This document shows positions 6,801 to 49,096 of a stretch of 64,000 bases of DNA, in pieces. The stretch comes from Candidatus Methanocrinis natronophilus. Lineage in GTDB: Archaea; Halobacteriota; Methanosarcinia; Methanotrichales; Methanotrichaceae. The stretch is from contig JARFPK010000007.1 of NCBI GenBank assembly GCA_029167045.1, forward strand, positions 1 to 64,000, in the 5' to 3' direction. Position 1 is the stretch's first letter. Each line of letters begins with the position of its first letter. A program made the position numbers and the translations under genes. The notes beneath the pieces are model-generated. The model had not been told where the DNA came from and ran no database searches. It was given only the letters and a program-made list of their open reading frames with translations.

Positions 6801-8744
6801 CATCCCCGGGAGGAACCCGATCCTTCCGCACCTGCGGTATCAGGCCGTGGTTCCGCCGGGTCCGTCCCGGTGGAGGAGTTGGTGGAGGAGTCGGCGGGTT
6901 ATGAGGGTAGGGAGGTGAGAAGAGACGACCCCGCCCTCCGCGAAGACGGAGGCTATGGGGTGGCAGGCCTCTTGAACCGACTCAGGGAGATCTTGGAGGA
7001 GTTCAGGATGAAGAAAGATGGCTCCAAGGCCGGATCCTCCATCAAGGACGGCTTCCCTGAAGGATCGCAGGCCGGATACGCCTCGGCCGGAGTACGGGAG
7101 AGAGGGCTTTATCCCACCCCAGCCCAGGGGCCTCTATACGCCCCCCAGGGCGGCGAGAGGGTGGATCCGCCCCTCTCCCCAGGTAGCGCCCTTCCGGAGG
7201 GGGCGAGGTACGCGCCGTCGATGGGGGAGACCCTGGCTTCCTCTGCCTCCGGGAAGACGGTCCCCGGCGCCTCAGGGTACACCTATTCTCCGGTAGAGTC
7301 GGCCTCAGGGAAGGAGACCGGGGCTCTTGGACACCCATCCTCAATCGGCGGGATGGCTTCGTCATATCTATCATCTCCGGGGAGATCTCCGGAGAGACCG
7401 CCGGGGAGTGGAGGATACACCTACTCGTCCAGCGCCCCCGCCATCTCATACCTCTCGTCTCCATCGGCGATTCCCGGAGGCGGTGCTAGCTACGCATCCG
7501 CCTCCGGCGATCCCTTCTCGTCCCTCTCCTCCCCCGCCGGGATCTCTCCCGCCATAACGGGACCATCGACCCCTGTCGGTCGCGAGAGCGCCGACCCCAG
7601 GTCTGCCCTGGAGGCATCCGCCAAGGTGGCCGAGCCGGAAGGGGTGTTGGGGATCCCCGGCGGCCAGATCTCCGCCCAGGTCTCGCCCGGTTACGCCGGG
7701 GCATCGGCCCCGGCAGGAACCCCGGCCCAAGAGAGAGCCACCCTCTCCAGGTCGCCGGCCAAGAACATCAGGCTCAAGGTAGGCGATATCGGCACCATCG
7801 AGATCGACCGACCCCCGAAGATCATCGATGTCGGGGCGTTCCCACCGGATCCGACGGCCTGGACTCCGGTGATGGTGGTGGTCCACGCCACCGACGATAT
7901 TGGGGTCAGATCGGTGGATATGCTCTGGAATATACCCAGCGCCACCGTCAGCAGGATGGACCTGGGCGACATCAACAGGATCAACTCCCAGAAGATGAAG
8001 CTCGAGGATGGAGACGCGAGAGAAGGCTACTGGAGCTACGAGATCCCTGGTCAGGCTCCAGGAACCTACATGGCGGTCTTCGTCAGAGTGAGCGACGGTG
8101 AAAGGTGGGCCGAAGACGGCCCGTACATCCTCTTCTGGTCAAGCAAGCCCCCTGAAGAGGGGCCAAGAAAGGTCCCTAGCCAGGAGAGGGGTCCTCTCGT
8201 CCAGGACGACCTCCCCACGGCTTCGGCGAGGGGAGAGAAGACGACGGAGATGAGGGGTGACGGTATGCTCTTCGTCGAGTCGACGACCGTCATCGGGAGG
8301 GGTGACGTCTCCATTAAAAACGAGTTCAGAGAATCGTCAGCCCTATACAGGGAGGTCCTCGACGGCAGTGGATCGATAGAGATGCAGTCCGATAAGAAGA
8401 TAAACAGAGGAAATCCCGTAGTCAACATAACCGACAGCCGTGTTCTGGTCTTTGATCAGGGAGTCTTAAAGGGATCGAAGCTGATGCAATCTCCAGGCTT
8501 CCACGGCGGTATGGGGGCGAGCGTCCTTGAGCGGTTCAACGCCACCACCCTTGAGAAGAGGGAGACCGGTACCATATCCTCGGTCAACAGAGCGGATAAC
8601 GTCCTCCTCTTCAACACCCAGCAGGCCTTCGAAGGGATATGGGGGACCAGAACCGAGTACTCCAGCTTCAACAAGAGGATAAAAGCCGACCAGAGGCTGA
8701 GCGGGACCTTCGAGACCCAAAGGAGGATAACCTTCGAGGACTAG
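3873..8744 (+). CDS. Giant secreted CARDB/DUF11-type repeat protein
   Basis: This 1623-aa protein begins with a signal sequence (hydrophobic stretch at about residues 17-36 ending LASAWS). At least nine Ig-like repeats of about 100 aa follow, each with a pattern such as V-x-Y-x-I-x-N-x-G-x-x-x-L-x-x-V and a distal L-x-x-G-E-x-x-x-L. These are CARDB/DUF11-like adhesion modules. Residues about 1050-1290 are a Ser/Gly/Pro/Tyr-rich low-complexity stalk. After it come another Ig-like domain and a polar C-terminal domain rich in short repeated strands. There is no LPXTG or clear C-terminal anchor. It is probably an envelope or sheath component. TATA-like elements lie at about 3791-3800 and 3829-3839. 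The coding sequence is uninterrupted despite its size. Confidence 0.8.
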   Translation: MKGGCRNISPEWGGAVRFICLAGLILIFFSLPLASAWSLPFSIPFLSSSDGGPEIFLEVDQILVDQGKPASYTINLRNSGKLTLTDISLRDNFGQAGFVARLQEGEAVTLSRTTPPLATSTRLEVVATSGGEEICRAEARLQVGLPGEGISIPDLDFERSIPIDDRRLRTMSTSAEIELAVGADPPAVRPGERTTVRMTVTNRGQPPLRGVEINGPGFAVEAGDLSPGESKTFSRTLTIAGDLSAEVVAAGTTDAGEKASDKRSLMVAAKSSDLSVTVISDPGSSGQPATTEYRIANSGEEFLSRVTLKDGDGATLGILARLGAGESKSLTRTSLRGEDPRGPIEVSAVSSGGRTVTGDVILRPAATSPETDPSRKTTRSGSSSAPSPGFVPNFEEMAFELSFDEIDAGFDLFGARSEGGDVRSSRPRPQGSGYDPLFDAGFDFADLHLFTGLPTPSAVGSGEAVAPPAGRERETGSPKLVVTLQVNRTRVHQGDTVGYRAVAVNRGTASLFDLELRCGDETATAPRLAPGDGLPLEGAVIADGNLNLTAAARGRGEGGPELSDEATLDIVAISPDLKVEVYKEPEKISRGERISITVRLENVGDDPLSEVRVSDEIGEIGRIPVLRPGEVRLLTRNTTLDESLEDVVRVEAIDSAGFRLQRSMVLTLQLLAPGLHLTVDPGEVATYPGEAAEVVWTIRNSGEVDLLDVTFEVEGMSRFRLPAVPAGGSMPVSTVHLAEESRQVMGRAEGRTAGGETVFATEALKIRVVSPGIGLSVKPSGVEASQKRPFNLTFVVTNTGDDVLRDVTLLEKSLGTLERIGRLEAGDFKVVTIDFLAEKNTTFRLEAAGTDSRGEVWRDSREVGVKIVSASISLTVRAEPAQIAPGGTVEVVSTVENRGDSPIFSTFIMTSSLEHLGTIDYISPGSSRTVVKRIEASSDIEEEITAEGFTRERTSVRDTDVLRVVVKEPETYPRKDHPREEPDPSAPAVSGRGSAGSVPVEELVEESAGYEGREVRRDDPALREDGGYGVAGLLNRLREILEEFRMKKDGSKAGSSIKDGFPEGSQAGYASAGVRERGLYPTPAQGPLYAPQGGERVDPPLSPGSALPEGARYAPSMGETLASSASGKTVPGASGYTYSPVESASGKETGALGHPSSIGGMASSYLSSPGRSPERPPGSGGYTYSSSAPAISYLSSPSAIPGGGASYASASGDPFSSLSSPAGISPAITGPSTPVGRESADPRSALEASAKVAEPEGVLGIPGGQISAQVSPGYAGASAPAGTPAQERATLSRSPAKNIRLKVGDIGTIEIDRPPKIIDVGAFPPDPTAWTPVMVVVHATDDIGVRSVDMLWNIPSATVSRMDLGDINRINSQKMKLEDGDAREGYWSYEIPGQAPGTYMAVFVRVSDGERWAEDGPYILFWSSKPPEEGPRKVPSQERGPLVQDDLPTASARGEKTTEMRGDGMLFVESTTVIGRGDVSIKNEFRESSALYREVLDGSGSIEMQSDKKINRGNPVVNITDSRVLVFDQGVLKGSKLMQSPGFHGGMGASVLERFNATTLEKRETGTISSVNRADNVLLFNTQQAFEGIWGTRTEYSSFNKRIKADQRLSGTFETQRRITFED

Positions 8745-41145: not shown

Positions 41146-41430
41146 TTAGTTACTGTCCAAGGCATCCAGTGCCTGAGAAGCCCTCTCCCTCACCATAAAA
41201 TAAGGATGCTCCCTTGCAGATTTTAGCAGCCTGACGGCCTTTGGCCCACCTATCTCCGCAATGGAGCATACAGATTCCAGGACCAGATAGGGATCAGATT
41301 CGGCCAAGAATTCTTCCAGAGTATCCAAAGCTCTCTCATCCCGCAGCCTTCCAAGGATGTAGATCATCTCTATCCTCTTCTCCGGCCGCCTATGGCACTT
41401 TGCCGAATGAAGGACCTTCTCGAAATACAA
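41146..41430 (-). CDS. HEAT-repeat segment following the toroid protein (may be one gene)
   Basis: About 94 aa of HEAT-like repeats (EKRIEMIYILGRLRDERALD and GGPKAVRLLKSAREHP). The only possible start is TTG 41430, with no ribosome site. The frame is exactly continuous with the upstream protein: that gene ends in TGA (41434-41436), one codon (GAC) follows, and then this frame continues. The upstream gene plus HEAT tail may therefore have been one protein, now split by a stop codon or read through. Confidence 0.55.
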   Translation of the reverse strand: MYFEKVLHSAKCHRRPEKRIEMIYILGRLRDERALDTLEEFLAESDPYLVLESVCSIAEIGGPKAVRLLKSAREHPYFMVRERASQALDALDSN

Positions 41431-41433
41431 GTC

Positions 41434-42318
41434 TCAGACACCCCCTCTGATACAGCCACAATTGACTCTCTTGTCCTCGATATCAGAGAGAATGTTCAAG
41501 GCAAGATGAGAGTATTCCAGGGTGGATATTCCGCCAAAGGGAGAGCGCCTAAATCCTCCGTTTGCGTTTTGGAGCGAATTTATAAAAGATGAGAGGCCGG
41601 AAGGGTCAGATAATCCGAGATATTTTGCGATCTTATGGCCAGCATAGACCCTTTCAATGGTGATCGAACTCGAAATAGGACTGGCTGTATATCCATTCCT
41701 GGTGGTGCATCTCCTCAAGAAGACCCTAATCTCCTGGAGCTCTCCAGAAGTAAGCCGAGCTGAACCGCCCTTAGAATTTATTGAATTCAATATCTCTAGA
41801 GCCATAAAGAGGGTCATAATATCCCGATTTCCGATGCGCTTTAGAAAAGTATGAATCAGGTTCGCCAATCCGCTGTTTGGAGCCGTCTCGCCCAGATCTA
41901 TCCGTTTTAATAAAGCGCTCAAAGGTGATGAAAAAATGTTTTCCCCATAGGCTCCGTGTAAATCATATCTGAAGTAGTTGGAGACGGGGGTTTTTGGTAT
42001 AAAACATGGTATGATCGATTCATCCCCCATATAACGCCACCATATATTTCCATCTCTGTACTCCACCCCGGCTCCGGTAAGTTCGAGACATTTCTTGGCA
42101 AAATACCCAGAATTCAAATCGTAATGGTCATAACCCGACAGGAACAGGACTATATCTTCATCTGGCGATGGCAATTTTAGCGTTTTGAGGGAGCTCATGG
42201 CAAAATACGTATCGCGAATATTAGGCGGAAGCCCCCTAACAAAAGAGTAACCTAATCCAGAGCCGATCCGTATTTGTCTCTCTTCGAGATATCTGATAAC
42301 CGCCTGAATATCTGGCAT
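41434..42318 (-). CDS. Prenyltransferase/squalene-cyclase-like alpha-alpha toroid protein
   Basis: A 294-aa protein with repeated helical units containing DTYFAMSSLKTLKL, LMALEILNSI and EYSHLALNIL, and G-G-F motifs (NGYTAS, NGGFRRSP), as in the terpenoid cyclase/prenyltransferase alpha-alpha toroid. The catalytic DxDD of cyclases is not seen, so it may be a non-catalytic member. GGTGGAGGATC just before ATG 42318 is a good ribosome site. The coding sequence is AT-richer than core genes. Confidence 0.65.
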   Translation of the reverse strand: MPDIQAVIRYLEERQIRIGSGLGYSFVRGLPPNIRDTYFAMSSLKTLKLPSPDEDIVLFLSGYDHYDLNSGYFAKKCLELTGAGVEYRDGNIWWRYMGDESIIPCFIPKTPVSNYFRYDLHGAYGENIFSSPLSALLKRIDLGETAPNSGLANLIHTFLKRIGNRDIMTLFMALEILNSINSKGGSARLTSGELQEIRVFLRRCTTRNGYTASPISSSITIERVYAGHKIAKYLGLSDPSGLSSFINSLQNANGGFRRSPFGGISTLEYSHLALNILSDIEDKRVNCGCIRGGV

Positions 42319-42488
42319 GATCCTCCACCATATTCAGGAGTCATCAGCCTTGAGGCGGTTTGGGTGGACTCCATCACCATCTTAAAAGGTCTAAGTTGAG
42401 GGGCTATTAAAGCATTTCTGCATGGGATATAGGAATACTATATAAATATGTTACATAGAATATTTTTAAATCTTTTCCTGTTGGAAAA

Positions 42489-42615
42489 GACTTATAAACG
42501 ACATATGCAACCTGAGGTTGCCTTTAGGGCGATGGCGTCCGCCCAGGCTTAGATGCCTAAATCGCCTCGCTAGGCTAATGACACCTACTAGAAATACATA
42601 CGAAGTGATAGTAGG
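42489..42615 (+). promoter_or_regulatory. Fluoride riboswitch (crcB motif) with translational switch, upstream of the antiporter
   Basis: A TATA (GACTTATAAACG, 42489-42500) is followed by a 6-bp hairpin (GCAACC/GGTTGC, 42507-42521) and the aptamer at 42527-42588. P1 is GGGCG(42527)/CGCCC. The P1 loop is ATGGCGTC. Then come an extra AGGC/GCCT hairpin, AAATCGCC, P3 GCC/GGC, and the conserved 3' strand GGCTAATGACACCTAC. The loop GGCGTC can form the pseudoknot with GACACC at five of six positions. The aptamer end CCTACTA (42584-42590) pairs perfectly with TAGTAGG (42609-42615), which abuts the ribosome site GTGAT and ends on the first base of the GTG start. Fluoride binding would hold CC in the pseudoknot and free the start: an ON switch. 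Confidence 0.88.
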
Positions 42616-43730
42616 TGGCAGTAGATCTATATTCAACCGCTCTGATAGCAGCGGTCGTCGTCTTAACCGGCATCCTCAGCATCAGGTTGCGGATCTCTTC
42701 CTCCATTCTCGAAGCTGGAGCAGGCATAATACTTGCCAGCGTCCTCGGGGTGGGGATAGAGGCCTGGCTCGATTTCCTCGCTACCTTCGGTGGCTTGATG
42801 CTCACCTTCCTGGCAGGAGCGGAGGTGGATCTGTATCTTTTGAGGAATAGTGCGAAGCAGAGCTTCACTATAGGCAGCATGGCCTTCGCGGTCCCCCTCA
42901 TCGGCGAAGTGGCCTTCTTGTCTTTGTTCACAGATTGGTCCACCTTGGCCGTCCTGGCAGCAAGCATCGCCCTGACGACCACGTCGGTAGCGGTGGTATA
43001 TTCCGTGCTACTGGAGTACGAACTGATGGATCTCAAGGCGAGCCGGATGATAATTGCGGCGACCTTTGTGAACGACATCTTAACACTAATAGCGATCACC
43101 CTCATATCGCCCAGCTTCAACTTTTACACCATCGCCTTCCTCCTCATAATCGCCTTCCTGATCCTGGTGTTGCCGAAGATCCTGGAGTACGTGGTCGAAA
43201 GCTACGGCAAAAGGGCGGTGGAGCTGGAACTTCGGTTCATATTCGCCGCCATGCTCGGCGTCTCCTTCATCGCCGACGTCGGCAAGCTCCACGCCGTCTT
43301 CGGGGCCTTCGTCCTGGGTCTCGTCTTCGCAAACTGTATCCACAGCTACAGTGACATACTCCCCAAGATCCGATCGGTCACCTTTTCGCTCCTCTCCCCA
43401 GCCTTCTTTTTGAGGGCCGGGATGCTCATCTCCATCTCAGCCGTTGCTCAGAATATCGGGATCATATTGGGACTATTGGGGGTCAAGATGCTCTCCAAGT
43501 TCATTGGAACATATTACTTCAATAAGAAGTGGATTCCCGAGGCTCCGATCTTCTCCACCATGCTCCTCTCCACGGGGCTTACTGTAGGAACGATAACCGC
43601 CACCTTGGGGCGTGATCTGGGGTTCCTCGATCAAACTCAGTTCTCCATCGCCATAACCACAGTGATCCTCAGCGCTATCGTTCCAACTTTGATCGCAAAG
43701 CGGTTTGTGCCTGACAAGAGTGTAAAATGA
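42615..43730 (+). CDS. CPA-family cation:proton antiporter under fluoride riboswitch
   Basis: A 371-aa integral membrane protein with about eleven helices and the Na+/H+ exchanger (CPA2/KefB-like) pattern, including TTTSVAVVYSVLLEYEL and the ion-site FVNDILTLIAIT. There is no cytoplasmic NAD-binding tail. The start is GTG 42615, preceded by GTGAT and controlled by the fluoride aptamer described above. Antiporters of this superfamily are among the gene classes known to follow fluoride riboswitches, where they may help expel fluoride or manage pH, so a role in fluoride tolerance is strongly suggested. True crcB/Fluc and CLC-F genes are not visible in this window. Confidence 0.88.
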   Translation: MAVDLYSTALIAAVVVLTGILSIRLRISSSILEAGAGIILASVLGVGIEAWLDFLATFGGLMLTFLAGAEVDLYLLRNSAKQSFTIGSMAFAVPLIGEVAFLSLFTDWSTLAVLAASIALTTTSVAVVYSVLLEYELMDLKASRMIIAATFVNDILTLIAITLISPSFNFYTIAFLLIIAFLILVLPKILEYVVESYGKRAVELELRFIFAAMLGVSFIADVGKLHAVFGAFVLGLVFANCIHSYSDILPKIRSVTFSLLSPAFFLRAGMLISISAVAQNIGIILGLLGVKMLSKFIGTYYFNKKWIPEAPIFSTMLLSTGLTVGTITATLGRDLGFLDQTQFSIAITTVILSAIVPTLIAKRFVPDKSVK

Positions 43731-43805
43731 AATCTGATGAGGTGTCTTGGTATGAGGCGCTCTCTTATAGTTGAAGATCATAATAAAAATTGAGAGGTGC
43801 AGAAT

Positions 43806-44258
43806 ATGGATATGGAAAGTGTCGAGGATTATGGGATCAAGAAGATCGTAGTCTCTATCGATACCTCGGAGTACTCGAAGATGGTGATGGCCAGGGCTTC
43901 GGCCATAGCGATCGCCTTCGAAGCCGAGATCCATGTGATAAGCGTTGTGAGCCTTCCAAAGCTGGTCGCTTCTGTGGCAGATATCGGAAGGGAGGATCTC
44001 CGCCGGAGCGAAAATGAGTTTCAAGATCACCAGAAGAGGCTCATCGACGAATATATGAGAGGGTACAATTTGCGTGTCGAATCTCGAGTGCTCCATGGAG
44101 ACCCCTCTGCCAAGATCCTTTCATATGCAGATGAGATCGGCGCAGATCTGATCGTCATGGGAAGTAAGGCCTATGGAAAGGTCCAAAGGTTCCTCTTGGG
44201 CGGGGTCTCGGAGGAAGTCGTCAGAAACGCAAAGTGCTCGGTCATGATCGCAAGATAA
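43806..44258 (+). CDS. Universal stress protein (UspA family)
   Basis: A 150-aa single-domain Usp: N-terminal KKIVVSIDTSEYSKM, and the ATP-binding signature GADLIVMGSKAYGKV with the following GGVSEEVV. ATG 43806 is preferred; GAGAGGTG lies 6 nt upstream. It has a TATA-like TCTTATAG at about 43762 and follows the riboswitch-controlled antiporter by 75 bp, so it may be transcribed both alone and with it. UspA genes are recurrent partners of fluoride-riboswitch operons. Confidence 0.92.
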   Translation: MDMESVEDYGIKKIVVSIDTSEYSKMVMARASAIAIAFEAEIHVISVVSLPKLVASVADIGREDLRRSENEFQDHQKRLIDEYMRGYNLRVESRVLHGDPSAKILSYADEIGADLIVMGSKAYGKVQRFLLGGVSEEVVRNAKCSVMIAR

Positions 44259-44458
44259 TAACTTTAGGAAAGAGACCCCGTTGAAAGAATGCTATCCGCT
44301 TCCTGGTGCCACCCTTCATCCTGGTGGATGATAGCGATGAATGGAGCCGGGACAGCAGATCCTCTATTGGAAGATTCAGGGCCATATTGGAGATCGAAAG
44401 TCAGCTCGTAATCCTGAAACGAATTACAGAGCCGAAGTAAGCGGGTTCTGTAAAATCT

Positions 44459-44905
44459 TCACTGTGATCTCCTGAGAAGCTCCGCAATCCCTTCCATGGA
44501 TACTTCACCTCGCAGAGCTGTAAGCTCGGGAGGGGACTCCTGGAATAGCTCCAGGGCGTTGAAGAATCTGTCCAGCACGTCTCCGACATAGGTCGGAACC
44601 AGGAATATGTGGGTATGAGGTATCCTCCTGCCGCGAGCATACATACAGACAAAGTCTGGTTTTAAGGTCTCCATCATCCGCTCGGCCACCACCTTCGCCA
44701 CCCCAAAGAGGCTGGCATTCTCGTCATCGGTAAGCTCATGCCACCATGGCACGTGCCTCTTGGGGATTACGAGACAGTGACCTTTTGAAAAGGGGTTGAT
44801 GTCGAGGATGGCGAGGGAGAGCTCATCCTCATAGACCTTGTAACAAGGTGCTTTTCCTTCGACGATATCGCAGAAGATGCATCCTTCTACATTTATTCCA
44901 ACCAT
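44459..44905 (-). CDS. HIT-family nucleotide-binding protein
   Basis: A 148-aa protein with the HIT N-terminal CIFCDIVEGKAPCYKVYED and SKGHCLVIPKRHVPWW. The histidine triad reads IPHTHIFLVP: the nucleophile position (second His) is kept, but the third His is Phe, unlike the usual HxHxH. Adenylate hydrolase or transferase activity may therefore be altered. GGAGGAGC precedes ATG 44905. It is on the opposite strand to the antiporter-usp genes and may not belong to their regulon. Confidence 0.85.
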   Translation of the reverse strand: MVGINVEGCIFCDIVEGKAPCYKVYEDELSLAILDINPFSKGHCLVIPKRHVPWWHELTDDENASLFGVAKVVAERMMETLKPDFVCMYARGRRIPHTHIFLVPTYVGDVLDRFFNALELFQESPPELTALRGEVSMEGIAELLRRSQ

Positions 44906-45015
44906 AAAGCTCCTCCAACAGATAAAATCGCGATTATTGGTGATTAATACTTCGCCTTTCTCGAAGTGATGGAAACGCTTATTAGATGAAATATGCTAAG
45001 CCTGATTATATTTTT

Positions 45016-45090
45016 GGGCGATGCTGTCCGCCTGAGCGCGGTGCTCAAACTGCCGGGGAGGCTGATGACCACTACCAAGAAGACGGTAGG
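45016..45090 (+). promoter_or_regulatory. Second fluoride riboswitch (crcB motif), upstream of enolase
   Basis: The aptamer spans about 45016-45076: GGGCGATG with CGCC (P1), an extra TGAGC/GCTCA hairpin (45032-45046) in the same place as in the first copy, AAACTGCC, P3 GCC/GGC, and the conserved 3' strand GGCTGATGACCACTAC, which matches the crcB consensus more closely than the first copy. Pseudoknot pairing is weaker than in the first copy: loop GTC with GAC plus one more pair. Downstream, CTACC (45072-45076) can pair with GGTAG (45085-45089), again an alternative stem using the aptamer end. A TATA-like CGCTTATTAGATG lies at about 44976-44988. Confidence 0.9.
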
Positions 45091-45271
45091 TGTAATCGCC
45101 ATAGCAGGACTTCGAGATCTAGACGCCCACGTTGTGATGGTGGCCGCTATGTGGGGCGGCGTTCACTACTATTCTCTGGCTTTTCGGATGGCGAATTTTG
45201 AGCAACCCGATAGTAAAGCCATCCTGCTCTTTCTGCCGCATAAAGACCGATTTGAAGACGTAAAAAATTAG
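45065..45271 (+). CDS. Possible 68-aa protein between riboswitch and enolase
   Basis: An open frame runs to 45271. Its first ATG (45065) lies inside the aptamer, so GTG 45134 or ATG 45137 would be more natural starts. It contains a hydrophobic stretch (VVMVAAMWGGVHYYSLAF) but resembles nothing I recognise. At the position where the first riboswitch places its GTG start (GTAGGTG), this copy reads GTG TAA. It may be a decayed gene or a non-coding spacer before enolase. Confidence 0.3.
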   Translation: MTTTKKTVGVIAIAGLRDLDAHVVMVAAMWGGVHYYSLAFRMANFEQPDSKAILLFLPHKDRFEDVKN

Positions 45272-45283
45272 GTTGAATTAAAT

Positions 45284-45974
45284 ATGTCTTTGGAAATCGA
45301 AATGATCCGGGCCAGGGAGATCCTGGACTCGAGGGGAAATCCGACGGTAGAGGTAGATGTCTGGACGCACTGCGGCTTCGGGAGGGCATCTGTTCCCAGC
45401 GGAGCATCCACAGGAATCCACGAAGCTCTGGAGCTTCGCGACGGCGTAGACAGGTACGATGGCAAAGGCGTCCTGAAGGCTGTCGAGAACATTCGAGAAG
45501 TGATAGCTCCCAAGATCGTCGGAATGGATGTTTCGGTTCAATCTGAGATCGATAAGCTGATGATAGAGCTGGACGGCACGCCGAACAAATCCAATCTTGG
45601 AGCTAATGCCATCCTTGGGGTGTCCCTTGGGGTGGCCAAAGCAGCTGCCTCTTCTTTGGGCATGCCGCTCTACAGGTACCTTGGGGGCGTCAGCACGTCC
45701 AAGCTGCCGGTTCCATCCTTCAACGTCCTAAATGGGGGCAAACATGCCGGAAATGATCTCTCTATCCAGGAGTTCATGATCGAACCTGTAGGTGCGAAGA
45801 GCTTCCAGGGGAGGCTGAGGATGGCCGCTGAAACCTATCATGCTCTGGGCAAGATACTCCGGAGGAGATATGGCGAAGGGGCCACCAATGTGGGCTTTGA
45901 AGGAGGCTATGCACCACCACTCTCAAAGACTAGGGATGCCCTAGATGCCATAAAAGACTCCCTGTACGCTGCAG
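45284..45974 (+). pseudogene. eno: Enolase, 5' part, interrupted by an insertion sequence
   Basis: The first 230 residues of enolase (2-phosphoglycerate to phosphoenolpyruvate) are intact: [55 protein letters not shown]. At [10 protein letters not shown] the reading frame enters an IS element and stops at 45997. The metal ligands and catalytic lysines of the C-terminal barrel are in the separated distal part. The gene follows a fluoride riboswitch, which fits its role: enolase is a classic target of fluoride inhibition, and extra enolase copies occur in fluoride operons. A housekeeping copy is expected elsewhere. Confidence 0.9.
45967..45974. repeat. 8-bp target-site duplication, left copy
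   Basis: CGCTGCAG directly before the left inverted repeat GGCACAATC; an identical copy follows the right inverted repeat at 47595-47602. Both copies lie within the enolase codons for A-A-G. Confidence 0.9.
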
Positions 45975-47594
45975 GGCACAATCTATTTTTCCAGTGATGA
46001 AGTTGGAGGCTGGATAGATTCTCCCAAAAGTTATTAACCTTTGAGGAGAACTACCCAGTGTGACCCTCCAATGACCCAGATACACTTAAACTTGATAAAT
46101 TTTCCGTATCGCGAAATTCTCTACCGTATCCTTGGTGCGTATCCCGACGACTATGAGTTTACTGCAAAGGGAGTATTTCGTAAAGCTTCACCGCCGCTTT
46201 GCCCCGACTGCAGTACACAAATGGTTCACAACGGCTTCAACCATCGATGCAAAGAGCACCTCGGAACGGTTAAAGTAGGTAGATATCTCTGCCCTGCTTG
46301 CCGGAAAAACGTCTCCGAGGACAGCGGCTTTTGGGATGATCTGACTGGACAGCTATTCGATATTCTCTCAGAAATCTGCCAGCTATTGAGATTTCATCAT
46401 GTATCATATGAAGGAATCGAATCAACACTCAATTTCCTGATCCCCCGCGATAAGGATACGATACGTAATATGGTAAGGCAAGCTTTGGACAGATCAAAGT
46501 TATTCGAGTCAGCAGATATTCGCGTCGTCCATTACGATGAACAGCATCCTAAGGCTGGTAGGAACCAGAAGTACCGGTTAACCCTTCTTGACGCTTTAAC
46601 GAACCAAGTGATTGCAGAAAAACTCTCAGACTCGAAAGACCGCGAAACTATAATAAAATTTTTTAAGGAACATCTAGACACAGATAAACCGATATTCATC
46701 GTGACCGACTTATACAGGGGATATGAGGGTATAATTGAAGAAATTTTCGGCAACAAAGCGACCCATCAACTCTGCTTGTTTCACTTGAACCAGCTTATAG
46801 TTCTCGATTTTCCCAAGAACACAACAATCGAACAGGAATTGACTAAATATGAAATGCTGAATATTTTCTACAATCGTGACCTTGAGATTGAATTTCTCAA
46901 GCGCTTGGCGGATGAAGAACAGGTTATGAAGGTCTGTGACAAGGAAAAATATAATCAATGGTTTCGAGGGGCAAAGCGGCAATTTACAAATTTCGTCCAT
47001 ACCCTTAAACTCAAACGCAGAAGAAAAGGCCAAAATTTGGAACAGAGACCCTATCATGATGCGTTAAAAAATTTCCATAATTTGGTCGATAGAATAGAAT
47101 CTTTCGAGATAGCTGTGAGGAAAAGGTTGAGGAGAATCGAAAAGCTATGGCCTAACCTCACAGCATTTTATTTCGTTGATGGTGCCCCTGCTACTAACAA
47201 CGCCATAGAAAATTATTATTCTACAAGCCTTAAAACTCACAGGAAAAAGCAGCTACATACTCCAGGAATAGAAGATCAAATGAAGCTCTCCGCCTTGAAG
47301 AGAGCTGGAATATTCGGAAAGCCTGGCATAACGTTGTTCGAAGCTCTATTCATGTTTGCCCCTTTCCACGATCCTGGTTAAAGCTATTTTAATAAAAATA
47401 GTATTATGATTAACTTATAGCCGACGCTATCTCCACAATATTTAATATATGATATTATATTGTTATATTGAACAACTTATTCTGGAATAATATTGTACTT
47501 GCTCAGGTTCGATAAGACCTTAGAAATAGAGAGTTAAAGTAAAGTAGCGGTATATTTTCAAAAACGCGAAATCACTTGATTTTTAGATTGTGCC
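45975..47594 (+). mobile_element. Complete 1620-bp insertion sequence inside enolase
   Basis: The terminal inverted repeats are about 24 bp: left GGCACAATCTATTTTTCC then AGTGAT, and right, on the minus strand, GGCACAATCTAAAAATCA then AGTGAT, with 19 of 24 identical. An 8-bp duplication of CGCTGCAG flanks them exactly. One intact transposase gene fills most of the element, and the composition is clearly AT-richer than the host. The family is not certain; the 8-bp duplication and Zn-ribbon DDE transposase should allow assignment by comparison with ISfinder. Confidence 0.92.
46071..47381 (+). CDS. DDE transposase with N-terminal zinc ribbon
   Basis: A transposase of about 436 aa. An N-terminal zinc ribbon (CPDCSTQMVHNGFNHRC and CPAC) is followed by a helical region and an RNase H-like DDE core: VVHYDEQHPKAG (first Asp), IFIVTDLYRGYEG (second Asp) and APATNNAIENYYS (Glu). 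The frame is undamaged. ATG 46071 (MTQIHLNLINF) is preferred over 46041. It is the only obvious gene of the insertion sequence and may still be active. Confidence 0.88.
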   Translation: MTQIHLNLINFPYREILYRILGAYPDDYEFTAKGVFRKASPPLCPDCSTQMVHNGFNHRCKEHLGTVKVGRYLCPACRKNVSEDSGFWDDLTGQLFDILSEICQLLRFHHVSYEGIESTLNFLIPRDKDTIRNMVRQALDRSKLFESADIRVVHYDEQHPKAGRNQKYRLTLLDALTNQVIAEKLSDSKDRETIIKFFKEHLDTDKPIFIVTDLYRGYEGIIEEIFGNKATHQLCLFHLNQLIVLDFPKNTTIEQELTKYEMLNIFYNRDLEIEFLKRLADEEQVMKVCDKEKYNQWFRGAKRQFTNFVHTLKLKRRRKGQNLEQRPYHDALKNFHNLVDRIESFEIAVRKRLRRIEKLWPNLTAFYFVDGAPATNNAIENYYSTSLKTHRKKQLHTPGIEDQMKLSALKRAGIFGKPGITLFEALFMFAPFHDPG

Positions 47595-47602
47595 CGCTGC
47601 AG
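47595..47602. repeat. 8-bp target-site duplication, right copy
   Basis: CGCTGCAG immediately after the right inverted repeat end GATTGTGCC, identical to 45967-45974. Confidence 0.9.
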
Positions 47603-48162
47603 GCTACGGGGAATAGATTAAGATCGGGCTTGATTCGGCAGCATCCAGCTTTTATGCGGATGGCAGTTATTCGATCGATGGCGTCCATCTCTCCCCAGGC
47701 GATATGGTCGATTACTACGCCGATTTGGTGGCATACTATCCGATCATCCTTCTCTAATATCCCTTCGAGGAGGAGGCGTAAGATGACTTTGCAGAGATCA
47801 CGGCGATGCTGCCCGAAACGATCGTGGTGGGCGATGACATCTACGTAACAAATCCCAAGCGGCTGAGAAAGGGGATATAGATGGGTGCCACCAACGCCCT
47901 GCTGCTGAAGCTCAATCAGATAGGGTCCGTCTCAGAGGCGTTTGATACGGCTAAAATGGCCTTTCGAGCGGGCTTCAAGATCATGGCAAGCCACAGGTCG
48001 GCTGAGACTGAGGATTCTGCGTTGGCAGATGTGGCGGTTGCCCTGGGCGTTGAGCTTCTGAAGACCGGAGCTCCGGCTCGCAGCGAGAGGACGGCAAAGT
48101 ACAACCAGCTATTAAGGATACAGGAGGAGCTTGGTGATGCGGCAGAGTGCGTCAATCTTTGA
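47595..48162 (+). pseudogene. eno: Enolase, 3' part, with four premature stops
   Basis: Directly after the target duplication the enolase frame resumes (IKIGLDSAASSFYADGSYSI). It passes the [26 protein letters not shown] and [13 protein letters not shown] blocks and ends normally at NL (48162). Excising the insertion and one duplication would restore the frame, but four in-frame stops now interrupt it: TAG and TAA codons near 47615, 47756, 47778 and 47878. The third replaces the W of EEAWDDF. Decay of this half after the insertion indicates the gene is dead. Confidence 0.9.
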
Positions 48163-48310: not shown

Positions 48311-49096
48311 TCAATCCTTCCGGCCGTATACGTACCAGTAGATCCCGCCGACGAAGAGCGCTCCACCGACGATGTTCCCCAGGGTGACGGGGATCAGGTT
48401 GACGACGAAGAACTCGGTCCAGGTGACGCTCGCCCCGTACATGATCCCCGAGGGGATGAAGAACATGTTGGCGATACTGTGCTCAAAGCCTATGGCGACG
48501 AAGGCCATGATCGGAAACCAGACCCCAAAGATCTTGCTCACCACGTCATCGGAGGCGATGGCGAGCCAGACGGCGAGGCAGACGAGCCAGTTGCATCCGA
48601 CACCCTTGAAGAAGAGGGGCCAGAAATCCTGAGCGACCTTCGCCTCGGCGATCCCCGTGATGCTCGAAAGCCACGGATCTGAGGCGAAGAGGCCGGTCAT
48701 GTAGGTGAGGAAGATGACGACGAATATGGAGCCGAGGAAGTTTCCGAAGTAAGATACCGTCCAGTTCCTCGCCAGCCCCGACCAGGGTGCCTTCTTGGAT
48801 AGGACCGCCGGGATGCAACTGGCGTTGTTGCCGGTGAAGAGCTCTGCTCCCGCCACCACCACCAGCATCAGCCCCACCGGGAAGACGGCCCCGAAGATGA
48901 ACTTCTGCAGGCCGGGGTTTGCCGCCTGGATATCGGGAACTCCGCCGCCGACGATCACCGCCAGGAGCCCTCCAAAGGCGATGAAAGCGCCAGCCAAAAA
49001 GGATAGCGTCAACAGAGGGCCAAATTCTATACCGATCTTGTTACATCCGATGTTGTCGACGGAGCAGGTAGTCTCTTTTGGTGATTTGAATCCCAT
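48311..49096 (-). CDS. Formate/nitrite transporter family protein (FdhC-like)
   Basis: A 261-aa protein with six membrane helices and FNT features: AGAFIAFGGLLAVIVGGG, GAELFTGNNASCIPAVL (the conserved FTGN loop) and IGFEHSIANMFFIP with the central histidine region. In methanogens such proteins import formate. It lies 195 bp downstream of the NfnB/GltA-like gene on the same strand and close to the formate dehydrogenase, so formate is the likely substrate. GGAGAGAG precedes ATG 49096, and a TATA-like TTTTTGATAAG lies about 40 nt upstream. Confidence 0.9.
   Translation of the reverse strand: MGFKSPKETTCSVDNIGCNKIGIEFGPLLTLSFLAGAFIAFGGLLAVIVGGGVPDIQAANPGLQKFIFGAVFPVGLMLVVVAGAELFTGNNASCIPAVLSKKAPWSGLARNWTVSYFGNFLGSIFVVIFLTYMTGLFASDPWLSSITGIAEAKVAQDFWPLFFKGVGCNWLVCLAVWLAIASDDVVSKIFGVWFPIMAFVAIGFEHSIANMFFIPSGIMYGASVTWTEFFVVNLIPVTLGNIVGGALFVGGIYWYVYGRKD

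Follow-up and report, generated by a model that had tools for sequence, protein, structure and literature searches.

Which genes does an archaeon place behind fluoride riboswitches when no CrcB is found in its family? Fluoride defence is known chiefly from bacteria, based on exporters, and earlier protein functions have come to light through riboswitch partners, that of CrcB among them. The locus lies in a 64-kb stretch of DNA (64,000 nucleotides, hereafter the window) from a Methanothrix-family (Methanotrichaceae) archaeon. A covariance-model search of the window, and of 10 kb around the locus, with RF01734 (Rfam gathering score, 34 bits) returned three matches, RS1, RS2, and RS3 (Table 1). 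The preliminary description, made from the letters alone, had proposed two crcB-motif aptamers about 2.5 kb apart. Both are present beyond chance, with their starts 2.49 kb apart; RS2 passes the gathering score, while RS3 falls 1.2 bits short of it. The count of two was incomplete, as the strongest match, RS1 before a toroid gene, had gone unmentioned. The antiporter, UspA, and enolase genes named there were borne out by Pfam matches, and the partial decay of the island could be located in the enolase (insertion sequence and stops). We consider it likely that this is a fluoride-stress island with three arms, toroid plus HEAT, antiporter plus UspA, and formerly enolase, each behind an RNA of the fluoride-riboswitch class.

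Table 1. Features of the island (positions in the window).
Feature	Position	Strand	Evidence and remarks
HEAT-repeat protein	41146-41430	-	PF13646, 43 bits; directly downstream of the toroid gene
Alpha/alpha-toroid protein, 294 aa	41434-42318	-	PF00432, 19.6 bits, under the cut-off of 26.5; behind RS1
RS1 expression region	42316-42341	-	pseudoknot 3' strand ACUCC (42341-42337); Shine-Dalgarno-like GGAGG from 42326; ATG at 42318
RS1, RF01734 aptamer	42328-42387	-	53.9 bits; pseudoknot pairs 5/5
RS2, RF01734 aptamer	42519-42594	+	45.1 bits, E 2.8e-9 (64-kb window); pseudoknot pairs 4/5
RS2 expression platform	42582-42617	+	42582-42590 CACCUACUA pairs with 42609-42617 UAGUAGGUG, the latter holding the GTG start 42615-42617
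Cation:proton antiporter family protein, 371 aa	42615-43730	+	PF00999 (Na_H_Exchanger), 128.6 bits
Universal stress protein (UspA type)	43797-44258	+	PF00582 (Usp), 99.2 bits; next after the antiporter
HIT-domain protein	44459-44905	-	PF01230, 68.1 bits; between UspA and RS3
RS3, degenerate RF01734 match	45008-45081	+	32.8 bits, E 4.8e-6 in 10 kb; pseudoknot pairs 3/5
Enolase pseudogene, N-terminal part	45284-45973	+	PF03952 (Enolase_N), 200.5 bits; frame open as far as the insertion
Insertion sequence	45974-47595	+	inverted ends GGGCACAATCTA; transposase 46041-47381
Enolase pseudogene, C-terminal part	47596-48162	+	four in-frame stops

Versions of the island occur in five related genomes (G004, G016, G026, G028, and G045), three of which also hold a unit of a riboswitch and glutamine synthetase, and the HIT gene neighbours the antiporter–Usp pair in G004, G026, G028, and G045. 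Outside the island contig, the genome gave only weak RF01734 matches (21.4 bits and lower), similar to those in most control genomes. The preliminary description saw no crcB/Fluc or CLC-F gene, and neither CrcB (PF02537) nor CLC (PF00654) matched anywhere in the genome, a draft that is 94.5% complete, so that a missed gene is possible.

The pseudoknot was compared in 119 of 120 archaeal aptamers, read at fixed model positions; the incomplete match L060 was left out. All five pairs are present in 106 of the 119, and the two strands co-vary: position 2 alternates between G-C and A-U, and position 3 among A-U, C-G, and G-U. Over the 24 distinct strand combinations, 92.5% of the pairs are kept, whereas 1000 re-pairings keep 80% on average and never more than 86.7%. 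RS3 is the sole aptamer with fewer than four pairs.

The 3' strand of the pseudoknot also has the potential to pair with the translation start. At RS2, which ends 20 nt before the GTG start of the antiporter gene, the start-codon helix comprises 9 pairs (-13.9 kcal/mol, a strength that none of 200 shuffles reaches) and forms part of the minimum-energy fold (z -2.90). The helix is equally strong at the RS2 counterpart in G004, and in G026 and G045 the riboswitches ahead of glnA reach -14.2. We infer that the aptamers bind fluoride and that binding turns translation on: without fluoride, the pseudoknot 3' strand of RS2 would pair with the stretch containing the start codon, and with fluoride docked the strand would be drawn into the pseudoknot, leaving the start free. 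At RS1, 9 nt ahead of the toroid start codon, the same competition in a weaker form would mask the Shine-Dalgarno stretch. Pairing in this expression region is weakly supported: CUCC pairs with GGAG in the minimum-energy fold, which is not significant (z -1.09), and the platform duplex has a shuffle rank of 0.055. A scan of 42300-42700 for sigma-70 promoters and terminators returned one promoter-like site (chance 0.8) and no terminator, and hence no evidence for transcriptional control by a terminator. Sequestration of the Shine-Dalgarno stretch or start codon was not borne out as a universal platform of archaeal fluoride riboswitches, the median shuffle rank over the 119 aptamers being 0.24, with only 21 below 0.05; the counterparts in G016 rank at 0.685 and 0.70.

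RS3 is a degenerate copy rather than an intact member of RF01734. Its fold is not significant (z -0.31; platform duplex shuffle rank, 0.085), and its counterpart ahead of an intact enolase gene in G028 scores 44.4 bits. The enolase itself is interrupted by an insertion sequence flanked on both sides by GCTGCA (45968-45973 and 47596-47601). Six full or nearly full copies of this element, including the island's own, are present in the genome, all 100% identical after rounding. Pfam matches lie in reading frames 45284-45997 for the N-terminal half and 47881-48162 for the C-terminal half (124.3 bits). The broken aptamer pairs, the stops, and the insertion show that this third arm is decaying. The search for a second enolase, proposed in the preliminary description, found an intact copy on another contig. 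The same description saw an extra hairpin between the two stems in both RS2 and RS3, which is visible in the model alignments, and read the pair as if duplicated. A recent duplication is disfavoured: the two are 65% identical to each other, versus 97% for RS2 and its counterpart in G004 and 82% for RS3 and its counterpart in G028, each counterpart preceding the same gene. Other archaeal aptamers carry the hairpin too, for example those upstream of crcB in G082 and of the Thermococcales toroid gene. A small reading frame between RS3 and the enolase (45075-45271) was rejected as a gene, since the longer frame 44993-45271 has no Pfam match and the fetched loci yielded no relative at E 1e-3.

The link between toroid gene and riboswitch recurs in other archaea. 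Among 34 toroid loci found by protein sequence, RF01734 lies just upstream in 22, including 10 of 10 in Thermococcales, and crcB directly follows the toroid gene in five further loci. The set is not neutral, as the query alignment (A2) consisted of toroid proteins chosen for standing behind a riboswitch, and two of the 34 (L139 and L141) are the query members' own loci; among the 17 loci without DNA common to earlier fetched loci, 13 have the aptamer upstream. The toroid gene is followed directly by crcB in L155, L162, L164, and L168-L170, has crcB close by in L151-L153, and is followed directly by enolase in L145-L148 and L165. In a phylum sample, 65 genomes had a toroid match, of which 53 strong ones were kept and 12 weak or short ones dropped. 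No listed riboswitch stood upstream on the same strand at 23 of 55 toroid places; among the 20 of these that were fetched, crcB adjoins in six and a dynamin-like gene in one. Five Methanotrichaceae genomes, all of one genus, carry the toroid gene without any listed riboswitch.

The toroid gene might be a passenger: the island may simply have been handed down as one unit, or the true target of the riboswitch may be the following gene, crcB or enolase, which stands second in the toroid operon at several loci. The compared genomes are related, and the Fisher test for the association (odds ratio 17.8, p 2e-18) ignores relatedness. However, it is the toroid gene that comes first, 4-90 nt behind the aptamer, in Methanothrix, Methanomicrobiales, Archaeoglobi, Thermococcales, and a Bathyarchaeota genome, and the second genes differ. 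Moreover, some Archaeoglobaceae toroid genes that lack a riboswitch at the cut-off still directly precede crcB (L162, L164, and L168-L170). We regard a passenger role as unlikely and favour a toroid gene that is itself a target of the riboswitch.

Alternatives also exist for the other two arms. CrcB matches occurred in 58 genomes among 119 relatives, none of them from Methanotrichaceae, and the genome studied here has no CLC match, yet possesses fluoride riboswitches and the antiporter, which might suggest that in this family without CrcB the antiporter exports fluoride, as the preliminary description also proposed. The protein belongs by PF00999 to the cation:proton antiporter family (95.9 bits against the TIGR00932 subfamily, under the model cut-off of 238.3), and a review explains riboswitch-linked Na+/H+ antiporters by pH homeostasis (PMC11139923). 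Riboswitch-linked antiporters, 31-37% identical, are also found in G102, G356, and G281, and G102 is not among the CrcB genomes listed. Fluoride export by this protein appears improbable, and we retain the reading as a cation:proton antiporter. The enolase arm is less secure. RS3 lies 202 nt from the pseudogene, a spacing seen at neither RS1 nor RS2, and may instead be the relic of a switch for a gene since lost from this spacer, never having served enolase. The spacers in the window and in G028 (226 nt) are long, since most switches of toroid, antiporter, and glnA genes stand 4-21 nt away; only 100 of the 202 positions can be aligned between the two, which have no conserved reading frame in common. 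Against this, the order aptamer, spacer, enolase is also found in G028 with the enolase intact, and an aptamer lies 103 nt upstream of the enolase gene in G091. The relic is a serious but lesser candidate, and judging from gene order RS3 would have controlled enolase.

What the toroid protein does can be approached through its fold. The AlphaFold2 model of the window protein (mean pLDDT 91.7) matches 3c72_B with a VIA-align Z of 19.3 (rmsd 3.1 over 237 residues, nearly the whole model). Four relatives score 29.7-59.5 bits against PF00432, over the gathering score of 26.5, and the toroid profile matches the prenyltransferase beta subunits of this family at E 2.5e-10. The predicted alpha/alpha-toroid fold resembles that of the beta subunits of RabGGTase, GGTase-I, and FTase, to which identity is 12-18%. 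The zinc ligands of these enzymes, which we take to be Asp, Cys, and His, seem not to have been retained; RabGGTase LPDVCY is aligned with LPPYLE of the toroid profile, at a site where the alignment is weak. The toroid gene and the adjoining HEAT-repeat gene are probably co-transcribed. Our working guess, less certain than any other step here, is a soluble toroid that binds isoprenoids or proteins and would curb damage to the membrane or to enzymes sensitive to fluoride.

Judged from its sequence context, the toroid protein probably belongs to the fluoride defence of archaea, a role so far overlooked. Its family is marked as fluoride-related by the riboswitch itself, and as functions have been found through riboswitch partners in the past, it offers a direct lead. 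On balance, we lean toward a broader proposal, in which the prenyltransferase-fold toroid of Thermococcales, Archaeoglobi, methanogens, and one Bathyarchaeota genome would be a core, so far unrecognised component of this defence, commonly first behind a fluoride riboswitch and in an operon with crcB or enolase. Some archaea would add islands with as many as seven fluoride riboswitches, whose further targets would be glutamine synthetase, F420 ligase, chaperonin, dynamin-like GTPases, and MutS-like proteins, so that the fluoride regulon would exceed that of bacteria. To have glutamine synthetase and F420 ligase as partners would indicate additional steps in methanogens that are sensitive to fluoride.

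The links of the riboswitch to antiporters and to enolase, rightly called known in the preliminary description, are already in print, both being described as partners in PMC11139923, and mutS is so described in PMC2864571. The toroid protein and glutamine synthetase were not found as partners in the literature searched, and searches for the fluoride riboswitch with prenyltransferase, Thermococcus, or dynamin were empty; in both cases, earlier mention in main texts or supplements is possible. Only C. difficile work surfaced for the riboswitch with glutamine synthetase, none of the best 10 of 16 matches for the riboswitch with "alpha-alpha toroid" contained that term, and nothing relevant to inhibition of glutamine synthetase by fluoride was among the matches listed.

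The island aptamers share with the fluoride riboswitch or crcB motif (RF01734) the consensus sequence, two stems, the pseudoknot, and a place before stress genes. They differ from known cases in that three stand in a short span, one of them degenerate, and no exporter gene was found. For Enterobacter cloacae FRM, an operon for resistance to fluoride is reported in a paper that also contains the terms fluoride riboswitch, enolase, antiporter, and universal stress (PMC5533749); that operon is bacterial, whereas the island is archaeal. The closest parallel for the toroid arm is Thermococcus kodakarensis, in which the crcB RNA was reported upstream of TK0513 rather than of TK0514, the crcB gene (PMC4247193). 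Passages from that paper do not name the TK0513 product, which may be a toroid protein, and the order aptamer, toroid, crcB at the Thermococcales loci L151-L153 agrees with what they report.

The putative fluoride-tolerance island in the window consists of a toroid arm, an antiporter-Usp arm, and a former enolase arm, each with an aptamer matching the fluoride-riboswitch model RF01734 (RS1, RS2, and RS3, respectively); RS1 and RS2 are divergently oriented. The best score elsewhere in the 2.41 Mb draft genome (100 contigs, 94.5% complete) was 21.4 bits. The GTG start of the Na+/H+-exchanger-family gene lies 20 nt past the end of RS2 and the gene is followed by Usp, with a HIT gene convergent to the pair. 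The enolase start is 202 nt past the end of RS3.

Positions of the island features and of selected aptamer loci in other genomes (G, genome; C, contig; L, fetched locus; FNT, formate/nitrite transporter)
Feature	Position	Strand	Remark
RS1	42328-42387	-	53.9 bits
RS2	42519-42594	+	45.1 bits
RS3	45008-45081	+	32.8 bits, below the cut-off of 34
Toroid ORF, 294 aa	41434-42318	-	PF00432 match below cut-off; start 9 nt past RS1 end
HEAT-repeat ORF	41146-41430		downstream of toroid ORF
Insertion sequence in enolase	45974-47595		ends GGGCACAATCTA, flanked by GCTGCA
FNT gene, window	48311-49096
FNT gene, L042	11593-12612
FNT gene, L043	2327-3364
FNT gene, L044	1945-2859
FNT gene, L045	6449-7234
Seven-match island	G416 C3:201740-214613
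Seven-match island	G356 C16:70098-82052
Tandem aptamers	G356 C16:76959-77023 + 77156-77222		one strand, single antiporter gene
Tandem aptamers	G281 C1:1058849-1058916 + 1058667-1058733		one strand, single antiporter gene
Overlapping matches	G129 C10:8086-8147 + 8136-8197		same strand, about 12 shared bases
Aptamer at extreme contig end	G114 C36:5546-5602

The protein behind RS1 is predicted to adopt an alpha/alpha-toroid fold. AlphaFold2, run with the window protein and 23 relatives, gave a mean pLDDT of 91.7 and a pTM of 0.89. The model resembled the beta chains of RabGGTase, GGTase-I, and FTase most closely (VIA-align Z 16.5-19.3), ahead of ribophorin II of OST (13.4-13.5) and squalene-hopene cyclase (12.9), and a sequence-profile match to RabGGTase beta reached E 2.5e-10. 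Foldseek gave a weaker result, with 1n4p_B as the single match at E <0.001 (8.0e-4, TM 0.60/0.51), and NCBIfam held no fitting model. As in the window, three Archaeoglobi-type loci (L165, L189, and L192) have a HEAT-repeat ORF close to the toroid gene (30-31% identity, E 5.9e-5 to 1.8e-8, HEAT repeats being generic).

At 102 riboswitch places with fetched flanks, a subset of all those listed, the first ORF by a simple rule and best match was toroid in 24, CrcB in 14, antiporter in 10, GlnA in five, enolase in three, and none of these in 46. One toroid case, L132, is spurious, having arisen from a fused reading frame, which reduces the toroid count to 23. A dynamin-like query matched at 15 of the 102, and Dynamin_N was the first-gene Pfam at four tested loci (L099, L102, L103, and L117). 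Further first-gene matches were to ABC transporter, MFS_1, F420_ligase, Cpn60_TCP1, MutS_V, NUDIX, inorganic pyrophosphatase, and Na_H_Exchanger; some of these other partners, on the wrong side or distant, may not be regulated by the riboswitch. The tandem aptamers, each pair ahead of one antiporter gene, are spaced by about 115-135 nt.

Scanning 84,980 species genomes with a seven-row toroid alignment, whose rows were chosen for standing behind a riboswitch, yielded 34 loci, 22 with an RF01734 match at cut-off just upstream. Some of the 34 repeat DNA of previously fetched loci. Seventeen shared no 60-base word (sampled every 30 bases) with those; 13 of these had a riboswitch, including 10/10 Thermococcales loci, and the remaining four (L160, L163, L171, and L172) all have short or cut reading frames. 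Among the 12 riboswitch-less loci, crcB directly follows the toroid gene in five (L162, L164, L168, L169, and L170). In a phylum sample of 392 genomes, the riboswitch was matched in 72 and the toroid profile strongly in 53, with 36 genomes positive for the two together (odds ratio 17.8, p 2e-18, ignoring relatedness and with a profile built from riboswitch-linked rows). A listed riboswitch lay at most 220 nt upstream of 25 of 55 toroid places and 548-1951 nt away on the same strand at seven; 23 had none. Toroid genes 42-45% identical to the window's occur in five genomes of one Methanotrichaceae genus (L198-L202 in G025, G021, G013, G027, and G029), with no listed riboswitch or crcB within the fetched 3.4-4.8 kb.

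RF01734 matches at E 0.001 or better were found in 15 of 119 relatives and, within the window's genus, in two of nine genomes (its own and G004). CrcB was detected in 58 of the 119, none of them Methanotrichaceae. G028 carries RS-toroid, RS-antiporter-Usp, HIT, and RS-intact enolase (416 aa). G026 and G045 carry RS-toroid, RS-glnA, RS-antiporter-Usp, and HIT, with no enolase in the fetched stretch; GlnA has 445 aa in G026, whereas its frame in G045 is truncated to 103 aa. The same units are spread over separate contigs in G016, where the antiporter and toroid frames are not intact within the fetched pieces. G004 has RS-toroid, in which there is an assembly gap (N), together with RS-antiporter-Usp, HIT, and then FNT; its island contains neither an RS3 match nor enolase. 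An FNT gene adjoins the island in 5/5 genomes (own, G004, G026, G028, and G045), on differing sides, in two groups about 51% identical to each other and with no preceding aptamer.

The island enolase frame is open up to 45973, and the part after the insertion sequence contains four in-frame stops. Six full or nearly full copies of the element in the genome are each 100% identical after rounding. Because the element is pristine and the C-terminal enolase half is not, the stops probably predate the insertion. The second enolase raised in the preliminary description exists as an intact copy on contig C17. In a tree of 25 enolases, with the window row joined from two pieces, the pseudogene grouped with the G028 island enolase (93/94), nested in nine Methanotrichaceae rows (95/93); the C17 enolase and its genus fell outside this set (100/100). 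By this placement, the island copy probably did not descend from the enolase of its own genus. The enolases that follow a riboswitch or toroid gene in Methanomicrobiales, Archaeoglobales, and G091 (L145-L148, L165, and L053) formed their own clade (100/100), apart from the included housekeeping enolases, which come from genomes other than these.

Across 119 aptamers, the pseudoknot has five pairs in 106, four in 12, and three in RS3 only; one mismatch is common to the aptamers ahead of antiporter, glnA, and enolase genes in Methanotrichaceae. The RS2 pseudoknot strand could form a 9-bp pairing with the stretch containing the GTG start. In the RS1 fold, pseudoknot-strand CUCC pairs with GGAG of the likely Shine-Dalgarno site, with a z not beyond chance. 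Such start or Shine-Dalgarno pairing was not a general feature of the 119.

The motif is described in bacteria and archaea, ahead of mutS and of genes for formate hydrogen lyase and for K+ or Cl- transport (PMC2864571), and a review lists among its partners exporters and Na+/H+ antiporters as well as enolase and pyrophosphatase (PMC11139923). The riboswitches with antiporter, Usp, and enolase arms are of an already known type. The T. kodakarensis crcB RNA is reported to lie, 'surprisingly', before TK0513 and not crcB (PMC4247193); TK0513 is probably the toroid gene, which suggests an explanation for this arrangement. As far as a limited literature search extends, three things are new: the recurrence of the toroid gene as a partner, glutamine synthetase as a partner, and archaeal islands with multiple switches.
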